DNA from: Terriglobia bacterium
GTDB taxonomy: Bacteria; Acidobacteriota; Terriglobia; JAJPHL01
Reading direction: 5' to 3'
Assembly (NCBI GenBank): GCA_021325275.1
Contig: JAJPHL010000040.1
Location: 1-37,019 of the forward strand
Length of the DNA stretch: 37,019 nucleotides
Shown here: positions 21,405 through 28,722 of the stretch, piece by piece
How positions within the stretch are numbered: the stretch's first letter is position 1
How the letters are laid out: every line of letters begins with the position of its first letter
The notes under the pieces: generated by a model
The model's database searches: none
Seen by the model: the letters and a program-made list of their open reading frames with translations, nothing else
What the model was told of the DNA's origin: nothing
Program-made: the position numbers and the translations under genes

Positions 21405-22442
21405 TTACGCGAGGGCGCGCGAGAACGCGACGATCATCCCCAACGTCAGGCCGGCGATCGCGAACTCGCCGAGCGCTCCAACGGCGAGCGGACGCCATCC
21501 TTGTCGCCCGAGCTCACGCAGATTGGTGCGAAGTCCCACACCCGCGAAGGTCAGCAAGAACGCCCAGCGCGAAAGATTCGCGAGATCGGCGACTTGCGGT
21601 TTGCTGAATACGCCTGCAGTGGCGAGCGCGGAGATCAGCAAGAATCCAAGAACGAATTTCGGAAACTTCTGCCAGAGGAACGCGGCGCGATTTTCGATTT
21701 TTGCGGACGCGCCTTTTCCGGCCCAGTAAATCGCGTACGCCAGCACCACAAATCCGATGGTGGCGTTGCGCGCGGTCTTCGCGAGCACCGCAAACTTCGC
21801 CGCGGCGTCGGAATAAAGCGCGCCGGCGGCGGTAGCCTCGGCGGTGTTGTCGACGGCTAGTCCGGCCCACAGCCCGTAAGCGCGATCGCTCATGTGCAAC
21901 GCGTGGCCGATCAAAGGAAACGCTGCGAGACTGAACGCTCCGAGCGCGAGAATGGCGGCGATCGCGTAGGACGCGTCTTCGTCGTCGGCGTCAATGGCTC
22001 CTTTCGCCGCGATAATCGCGGAGACGCCGCAAATCGACGATCCGATGGCCAACAGGCTCGTGAGTTTCGGTGAAAGTTTGAACGCACGTCCGAGCCAGGT
22101 CATCAGCGCGATCGACACGGCGAGTTCCACCGCGACCAGCGCGAGACTGAGTCCGCCGAGTTTCAGAACATCGCCGAGAAGGAAGCGAATTCCCAGGAGC
22201 ACGATGCCGGCCTTCAGCCAAAACTCATAGGTCGCGACGCCAGGCTGAAAGATCCACGAGACACCGAGAGTGTTCGAGATGATCAACCCGAAGAGAATCG
22301 CCCACAGGACGTATTCGATATTCGGCAGCGCGAGATGATGCGCCTTGCCGTACGCGGCGATCGATTGCTCGGTGAACTTGCCGGCGTATCCGATAGCGGC
22401 GAGGAGCAAAACGCCGGGGATGAGTCGTAGTATTTTTACCAT
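21405..22442 (-). CDS. YeiH-type putative sulfate/anion exporter family membrane protein (UPF0324)
   Basis: 345 residues from the ATG at 22442, which begins MVKILRLIPG; longer readings upstream are in the wrong frame for a membrane protein. About ten membrane helices, with the family features LWAILFGLIISNT, AGIVLLGIRFLLG, GSSICGVSAI and GLAVDNTAEATAAG. Members are annotated as putative sulfate exporters in the inner membrane, but transport has hardly been tested. There is no clear Shine-Dalgarno. The start lies inside the end of a 34-codon membrane-peptide ORF (overlap 22436-22442), so it is probably translated by coupling. Confidence 0.9.
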   Translation of the reverse strand: MVKILRLIPGVLLLAAIGYAGKFTEQSIAAYGKAHHLALPNIEYVLWAILFGLIISNTLGVSWIFQPGVATYEFWLKAGIVLLGIRFLLGDVLKLGGLSLALVAVELAVSIALMTWLGRAFKLSPKLTSLLAIGSSICGVSAIIAAKGAIDADDEDASYAIAAILALGAFSLAAFPLIGHALHMSDRAYGLWAGLAVDNTAEATAAGALYSDAAAKFAVLAKTARNATIGFVVLAYAIYWAGKGASAKIENRAAFLWQKFPKFVLGFLLISALATAGVFSKPQVADLANLSRWAFLLTFAGVGLRTNLRELGRQGWRPLAVGALGEFAIAGLTLGMIVAFSRALA

Positions 22443-22540
22443 GGGATATGCGGCAGCACGCCCGTCTTGACCAGCACCGCGGCCACGAGCGCGAGAATGA
22501 CGGCCCACCAATCGAGAGAAAGACTGAATCTGGAGTTCAT
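22436..22540 (-). CDS. 34-residue single-helix membrane microprotein overlapping the YeiH-type gene
   Basis: An ATG at 22540 with TGAGG six nt upstream opens a 34-codon frame ending TAA at 22436-22438. The product begins MNSRFSLSLDWW, continues with one hydrophobic helix (AVILALVAAVLV), then KTGVLPHIPW. Its final codons contain the start codon of the transporter (CC-ATG-G-TAA). The good ribosome-binding site, the helix and the exact overlap together suggest a real gene, comparable in layout to small partner peptides such as KdpF. The role is inferred only from position. Confidence 0.7.
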   Translation of the reverse strand: MNSRFSLSLDWWAVILALVAAVLVKTGVLPHIPW

Positions 22541-22692
22541 GAAAACCTCAAACGGAAAACAGAATGACGGGACGATTGCCTAGCGGCTACAACAATAGCA
22601 GAGCGAGTCGGGGAAAGACTGCATAAGTCGATTGTATCTGACCGGTCGCGCACCGATTGCGACATAACGATTCTATTCTGCGATAGGGAACA

Positions 22693-22956: not shown

Positions 22957-23319
22957 CTACCTAAGCCGCAGACGGCGGCTAGCCAAGCGTCTCGCAACTG
23001 CGGTTATGAAGCGATCATCCTCAACGAGCCGCTCGTAGCCGATCTGGACAGGATCGGTCTCCAACGATGACCGCAAAGCCGAGTTGATCTGTGTCTGGTA
23101 GGCTGCGGCGTCGGGCCGCGCGGCTCGCGCCTTGAAGTGTTCGACGATATCGGCGTCCAAGTACATCGTCACGCGAACTTTGCAGTTGCGCGGTGAAGTT
23201 TCGGCAAGGTTCGCTCGATGCCGGCGCAGTATCATCCGGATCGTTTCGCGCCGGACCGCGAACTCCGGCTCAACCTTCCTTCCCCTAGAGGAGCTAGATC
23301 CTTTTTCTTTGTTTTTCAT
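22957..23319 (-). CDS. brnA: BrnA-type antitoxin
   Basis: 120 residues from ATG 23319, preceded by a strong GGAGGA. The C-terminal half carries the BrnA ribbon-helix-helix signature KVRVTMYLDADIVEHFKARA followed by YQTQINSALRS. The N-terminal half is basic. In characterised systems BrnA neutralises the BrnT ribonuclease and represses the operon. The start overlaps the end of brnT by 26 nt, the usual toxin-first order of this family. The tail after residue 100 (VARRLASRRLRLR) is very basic. The antitoxin looks intact although the toxin N-terminus is damaged. Confidence 0.85.
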   Translation of the reverse strand: MKNKEKGSSSSRGRKVEPEFAVRRETIRMILRRHRANLAETSPRNCKVRVTMYLDADIVEHFKARAARPDAAAYQTQINSALRSSLETDPVQIGYERLVEDDRFITAVARRLASRRLRLR

Positions 23320-23584
23320 ATTCCTCCACCATCCAAGGCTCTGCACGCCGGGCATGAATGATTCGCACTCGATCGTCCGGCCGCTCCGTGAAGCAGACAT
23401 AGACCATGCCGAGCGGGACCAGACCGATGATCCCATAGCGGACTTCCGACTCCGTCGAGTGCGCCTCGTCCACGAACTCGACGGCGTGGGGATCGGCGAA
23501 AACGCCGGCTGCCTCGGTAAATCGGACGCCGTGGCGGTTCTCGTTCCGGTCGGCCTTTCCTGTCGTCCCAACTCGAAGAACCAA
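23294..23584 (-). CDS. brnT: BrnT-type toxin, N-terminus damaged
   Basis: The body of BrnT is clear: RHGVRFTEAAGVFADPHAVEF, then YGIIGL, VYVCFTERPDDRVRIIHARRAEP. The expected start (F-E-W-D-x-R-K-A-x-x-N) is present but split across three frames. F-F-E lies in the frame beginning GTG 23592, W-D-D-R-K in another, and A-D-R-N onward in the frame given here. Two single extra bases, one in a T/G run (GTTGGG) and one in AAAGGCC, account for this. The coordinates give the 96-codon open part from TTG 23584. It is either a decaying toxin or a sequencing error at two homopolymers. BrnT is a RelE-fold ribonuclease when intact. Confidence 0.65.
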   Translation of the reverse strand: MVLRVGTTGKADRNENRHGVRFTEAAGVFADPHAVEFVDEAHSTESEVRYGIIGLVPLGMVYVCFTERPDDRVRIIHARRAEPWMVEEYEKQRKRI

Positions 23585-23678: not shown

Positions 23679-24155
23679 CTACTCTTCTTGGGCTTCGAGC
23701 AGGCTCTCGAGTTCCGGGAGCACGCGAAGATCTTTATCTCGTCCTGCGGCACGTTTGGCGGCAATCAGGCTTCGCAAACTGAGGGTGCGAACTTTCCGAC
23801 CGTAGAGTTCCACTTCCGGTGACTCCTCCCAGACTTGCTCGAATGGCCCCAAGCCACTCACTTCGGCGAGTAGGTCGATCCTGCCCAGGTCCGTGTCCAA
23901 CGTCAGCAACGTTGTGTTGCGCAGCGTGGATTCGTCCCAAAGAAACGGAAGACCCGTTGGCAGGTCCACTGGGCGTGGATGAAAAGGGCCGAGCGCGCGC
24001 GTCAAGTGAGTTATGTTCTCGCGGAGTCGCGGATAGAAAATATCAATGTCGTTGGTGGTATGAACACTACCGTGAATGATCGCGCTGACTCCACCTATGA
24101 TGATGAACTGCACATCGGCGGCGACGAGCGCGTGAACCAGCTTTTCGACGCTCAT
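23679..24155 (-). CDS. Nucleotidyltransferase (toxin-antitoxin-like)
   Basis: 158 residues with the minimal nucleotidyltransferase core: FIIIGGVSAIIHGSVHTTNDIDI at about 17-39, giving the GG motif and metal-binding Asp37/Asp39, and a third acidic site near LGRIDLLAEV. The C-terminal LSLRSLIAAKRAAGRDKDLRVLPELE segment is shared with many DUF1814-like enzymes. Such proteins often act as toxins or partners of HEPN or small antitoxins by modifying tRNA or protein with nucleotides. Its ATGA start overlaps the stop of the 79-residue gene by 4 nt, so the two are translated together. Confidence 0.8.
   Translation of the reverse strand: MSVEKLVHALVAADVQFIIIGGVSAIIHGSVHTTNDIDIFYPRLRENITHLTRALGPFHPRPVDLPTGLPFLWDESTLRNTTLLTLDTDLGRIDLLAEVSGLGPFEQVWEESPEVELYGRKVRTLSLRSLIAAKRAAGRDKDLRVLPELESLLEAQEE

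Positions 24156-24495: not shown

Positions 24496-28722
<4,227 letters not shown>

Follow-up and report, generated by a model that had tools for sequence, protein, structure and literature searches.

A one-helix microprotein encoded beside PF03601 transporters of Acidobacteriota is probably a detached N-terminal scaffold helix

The minus strand of the window, by which we mean the whole 37,019-nucleotide stretch of contig JAJPHL010000040.1 from a Terriglobia bacterium analysed here, carries a very short ORF whose end overlaps the start of a putative transporter gene. A first-pass annotation of this DNA had described the ORF as coding for 34 residues with one membrane helix, preceded by TGAGG and ending inside the first codons of a transporter gene that has no Shine-Dalgarno of its own, and had proposed that it encodes a small partner subunit and also provides coupled translation. 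Inspection of the sequence confirmed the description of the small gene, and no Shine-Dalgarno was detectable 5′ of the transporter ATG, as had been stated. The features are as follows.

22436 to 22540, minus strand (read 22540 to 22436): 34-codon ORF (including stop) for a predicted one-helix microprotein, ATG start, TAA stop, MNSRFSLSLDWWAVILALVAAVLVKTGVLPHIPW
22546 to 22550, minus strand: Shine-Dalgarno TGAGG of the microprotein ORF (GAGG at 22546 to 22549), 5 nt from the ATG, located by reading and by script
22436 to 22442, minus strand: 7-nt overlap ATGGTAA, made of the transporter start codon and the microprotein stop codon, read from the sequence
21405 to 22442, minus strand: transporter gene of family PF03601 (Cons_hypoth698), 345 aa, ATG at 22442, 256 bits

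The window microprotein contains a single hydrophobic stretch (residues 11-29, mean Kyte-Doolittle 2.16), and its last 28 residues (LSLDWWAVILALVAAVLVKTGVLPHIPW) form the core that is conserved among its homologues. It matched no family among the Pfam and NCBIfam models, and a promoter scan upstream did not find a sigma-70-like site. Besides the transporter gene, no other PF03601 copy was found in this genome. Residues 9-321 of the transporter align with positions 1-303 of the 304-position PF03601 profile at 256.3 bits (gathering cut-off 24.5), while the YeiH model TIGR00698 gives 112.2 bits against a cut-off of 232.6, a score that rules out identity with the YeiH equivalog or subfamily. Judged by these profile scores, the protein is a PF03601 relative outside the YeiH subfamily. 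It shares its Pfam family and a similar core length with YeiH/PSE_1 of E. coli and Salmonella, but scores well under the YeiH cut-off and, unlike the other short PF03601 genes that we sampled, has a microprotein-like ORF adjoining it upstream. A PDB sequence search with the transporter as query returned no match. Just upstream of the microprotein gene, also on the minus strand, lie a BrnA antitoxin gene (22960-23319) and a BrnT toxin gene (23297-23584), followed by a nucleotidyltransferase-like ORF (23682-24155) and a large ORF (24496-28722) that looks rpoC-like by eye.

Homologues of the transporter were taken from one-per-species genomes, and short ORFs were found with a profile built from 16 DWW-type ORFs. 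All 85 subfamily loci having upstream DNA contained a homologous short ORF in the orientation of the transporter, almost always immediately 5′ of it; L055 and L108, in which contig ends truncate the upstream DNA, were left out of this count, a few of the 85 loci represent one genome present in two collections, and some of the relatives belong to bins with the label Pseudomonadota or Opitutia and may be mis-binned. Such an ORF upstream of homologous transporters is what the first-pass annotation had proposed to look for, and none of these loci lacks it. The homologues are 30-56 residues long (median 38), and the 28-residue core is free of indels throughout. An Asp lies exactly 25 residues from the end (position −25) in 85/85 homologues; Ser at −27 (77 homologues), Trp at −23 (71) and Ala at −22 (78) are nearly as constant, and the final residue is always Trp or Phe (Trp in 82/85). 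Position −10 holds Arg or Lys in 80/85 and position −5 Lys in 46/85, with acidic residues almost absent there. The family-wide motif is [LI]SLDxWAV...LL[VI]RxG...[VI]PW. The D-W-W signature and the P-H-x-P-W end predicted from the window sequence are thus only partly general: the Asp is invariant and the second Trp is Trp or Tyr in most members, but the first Trp occurs in 17/85; at the other end, the final Trp and, in 61/85, the Pro recur, but the His is found in 26/85.

The substitution pattern indicates that it is the protein that is conserved. Pairwise in-frame dN/dS of the microprotein gene, computed for three identity bands, was 0.225, 0.134 and 0.121. The two remaining forward frames gave 1.3 and 4.7 and the reverse frames 0.29, 1.07 and 4.9; the single low reverse-frame value (0.29) is taken as a mirror of the codon-position pattern. 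With in-frame values of 0.12-0.22, the absence of protein-level selection that the first-pass annotation had named as evidence against its proposal is not what we observe. On this pattern, the ORF is a real protein-coding gene under protein-level purifying selection, far beyond chance.

The arrangement of the two start sites is much less constant. The gap between the small ORF and the transporter has a median of 30 nt and ranges from −7 to 261 nt, although individual values may be wrong because start codons were picked by a script that favoured ATG and the best Shine-Dalgarno. The 7-nt stop/start overlap occurs in 4/85 loci (the window, L035, L045 and L066), and SD-like motifs were located upstream of the small ORF in 78/85 loci and upstream of the transporter in 73/85. 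Coupling by stop/start overlap is therefore rejected as a family-wide feature; coupled translation may hold for the window and at most three relatives.

Co-occurrence was examined in 297 Acidobacteriota genomes. All 20 genomes carrying the transporter also carry the small ORF, with 21 copies of each, one genome (G039) having two copies of both; these copies (L005 and L029) are two paralogous pairs in which every microprotein gene adjoins its own transporter gene. The 277 genomes without a close transporter gave microprotein matches in three cases, of which one (G200) was convincing: a stand-alone ORF of the same kind, NEDWWAVMVGWLLVILVMVGWIQQIPW, lies directly 5′ of a divergent PF03601 gene. 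The other two matches (G135 and G076) were rejected as chance matches within long unrelated frames, and apart from these every match in the 297 genomes lay next to a PF03601 gene. This gene content shows the microprotein gene to be inseparable from this transporter subfamily. The genetic linkage and co-occurrence expected of a transporter small subunit are thus found in 85/85 loci and 20/20 genomes.

PF03601 transporters (the PSE family) are described in a 9-TM form and in an 11-TM form, the latter bearing two additional scaffold helices at the N terminus; in both forms the N terminus lies inside, and the differences among subfamilies consist in gain or loss of N-terminal scaffold helices (PMC8396727). 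We assembled by motif search 31 PF03601 proteins with a fused N-terminal [E/G]DW[WL]-type helix, to which L210 was added on inspection. Profile-profile comparison aligned the microprotein almost over its full length with the fused N-terminal helix of the 31 long (PSE_2) proteins, the match starting ahead of the Asp and reaching the terminal Pro-Trp (score 31.0, E 4e-5 to 7e-5). None of 200 column permutations reached this score (best 18.8, mean 11.6), and the same microprotein profile gave E 0.27 against its own transporter and E 0.04 against short PF03601 proteins without the fused helix. The fused helix carries the motif EDWWAVWIG...P..W. In 31/32 fused proteins, a simple hydropathy scan revealed one more hydrophobic segment, placed after the DWW helix and ahead of the core, whereas the split transporters begin directly at the core and lack this second extra helix. 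The protein L210 (from G156) has approximately 100 extra residues between its DWW helix and its second helix, apparently a soluble insert.

A tree of the transporter core (120 rows, with the N-terminal stretch cut from the fused rows) united the split with the fused forms in a single clade (SH-aLRT 87, and 99 after adding three long-branch divergent short rows), with 58 other short PF03601 rows outside it. The G200 pair, comprising the NEDWWAVMVG... ORF and a core that lacks the second helix, branches off basally among the fused proteins, although its exact place is unsure because it sits on a long branch. This EDWWAV-type stand-alone ORF (L129) may have arisen by a second splitting event or may preserve a split condition that was ancestral. 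The alignment supports correspondence of the microprotein helix to the first member of the extra N-terminal helix pair of PSE_2; a likeness confined to one membrane helix may arise convergently, although here position, motif and tree are in agreement. Compared with PSE_2, the window system thus has the DWWAV-type helix of the same family as a separate protein, of a type 30-56 residues long, and is without the second helix; two extra helices fused in one chain, as in PSE_2, are absent.

AlphaFold2 models of close relatives of the transporter show a core with the CPA/AT elevator-type fold, resembling NapA (Z 16.2) and CitS. We also modelled natural in-frame read-through joins of the two genes at L071 and L043, with the stops read as Gly. 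Their cores reached mean pLDDT of 80 and 86, and the microprotein part was modelled as a 17-residue helix of moderate confidence (pLDDT ~55-71), the placement of which is unreadable. For most chains the VIA structure matches begin with the core (model residue ~57); the CitS and ASBT rows alone begin close to the helix, and we attach no meaning to this. Also among the structures resembling the core is NHA2 (PDB 7p1i, Z 12.5), a CPA-type antiporter that has one additional helix at its N terminus; in NHA2 the helix is fused in the chain, whereas the microprotein is a separate product.

Together, these observations make it probable that the microprotein is a separately encoded N-terminal scaffold helix, i.e., a small subunit, of the adjoining PF03601 transporter, which itself probably exports sulfite or a related anion of sulfur. 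The small partner subunit proposed by the first-pass annotation is in this respect well supported by comparative data: universal linkage, co-occurrence, purifying selection and likeness to the fused helix. The microprotein would insert as a small integral membrane protein and replace helix 1 of PSE_2 as a separate chain. It would pack on the scaffold domain of a 9-TM, PSE_1-like core, at the site that elevator transporters of this kind use for their additional N-terminal helices, and could stabilise or tune the transporter dimer. We infer that topology keeps the chain separate: a core with its N terminus inside could not take one fused helix without a second that restores the orientation, and fusion of a single helix would thus require a second one. 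This parity fits the fused forms, which have two extra helices, and the split forms, which have one. With the conserved C-terminal Lys/Arg residues of the microprotein, the N-in orientation expected from PSE_2 is not clearly favoured. We consider it somewhat better than an even bet that Acidobacteriota harbour a third PF03601 architecture, in which the PSE_2 scaffold helix is a stand-alone microprotein of ~30-56 residues and topology parity explains why some forms are split and others fused. Among the papers searched, none describes a small PF03601 subunit. The split form would be a new architecture within a known transporter family, not a new kind of system. It adds a real microprotein family that has a clear partner and has probably gone largely unannotated, and the natural split/fused pair shows which part of the PF03601 transporter the small protein would replace. 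A topology rule this simple could be sought in other microprotein-transporter pairs.

Small subunits with a single helix are familiar from other transporters, such as KdpF of KdpFABC, AcrZ of AcrAB-TolC and MetS beside MetP. The microprotein resembles these tiny membrane proteins, which are encoded with a transporter and act on it, but its partner family differs and no Pfam or NCBIfam model of them matched any scanned member. The microprotein might be a small membrane protein with a regulatory role that associates with the transporter occasionally, in the manner of AcrZ on AcrB, its likeness to the PSE_2 helix being convergent. We regard this as unlikely, even though size, single helix and linkage all fit and the microprotein appears to change more quickly than the transporter (mean column identity 38% (A1) compared to 51% (A2, including linkers)). 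It accompanies every transporter copy, as a structural part would, the helix it matches occupies the corresponding end of related transporters, and the split and fused forms make up one clade.

Less probable still is that the ORF is a leader that works through its translation, by coupling, attenuation or ribosome arrest at Pro-Trp-stop, and not through its product. The Pro-Trp conserved right before the stop at a fixed distance from the Asp, together with the 7-nt overlap in the window and three relatives, would suit a leader, but the variable gap (−7 to 261 nt) and the SD-like motifs of most transporters would not, the entire helix is under protein-level selection, and the same motif with its Pro/Trp end is fused inside PSE_2 proteins, where a leader role is impossible. 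That the ORF encodes a conserved protein with its own function, e.g., a general membrane or stress protein merely located in the operon, appears very improbable: some members match the YohP model weakly (25-31 bits, cut-off 58), but none was found away from PF03601 genes in the 297 genomes save the two matches in unrelated long frames. Short ORFs are frequent in this GC-rich DNA, but conservation, selection and co-occurrence already refute a chance ORF, to which we give next to no credence. The reading as a detached scaffold helix is therefore the one we prefer.

YohP itself (NF011345) was rejected as an identity, with a best score of 31.2 bits (L074) and no match for the window protein. The microproteins at L074:2792-2920, L093 and L042 resemble the 27-residue E. 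coli YohP (WAVLxxFLxxLLVxTGVFK), a likeness that is probably convergence. Other weak matches comprised NDH_I_M (one member, NCBIfam, E 0.029) and Smim3 (one member, Pfam, E 0.0019). In E. coli MG1655 (L244, 2226000-2240000), YohP is encoded 1.6 kb from yohJK, with dusC in between; yohJK is of the LrgA/LrgB type, which belongs to the same RHR fold class (PMC8396727).

Gene neighbourhoods offer a clue to the substrate. In 24/85 loci the pair is preceded, on its own strand, by a nitrite/sulfite reductase gene; 21 of these loci also contain a TP_methylase (siroheme-type methyltransferase) gene and 14 a gene with the precorrin-2 dehydrogenase/siroheme-synthase N-domain. In Salmonella, YeiH confers sulfite resistance (PMC12880088). 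Because of this resistance and the sulfite reductase neighbours, a sulfite-type anion is the likely cargo of the transporter, as judged from gene context and analogy, and the sulfite reductase/siroheme operons point to a function for a poorly characterised transporter family. The window pair stands alone and not beside sulfite genes, the sulfite/nitrite reductase genes of this genome being located elsewhere. Clusters that end in the small ORF and the transporter can be seen, among other loci, at L047:13-2897, L073:91-2920, L042 and L046. Where present, the methylase gene ends ~20 to 325 nt from the microprotein start, and at one further locus (L077) it is the methylase gene alone that lies within the stretch examined.
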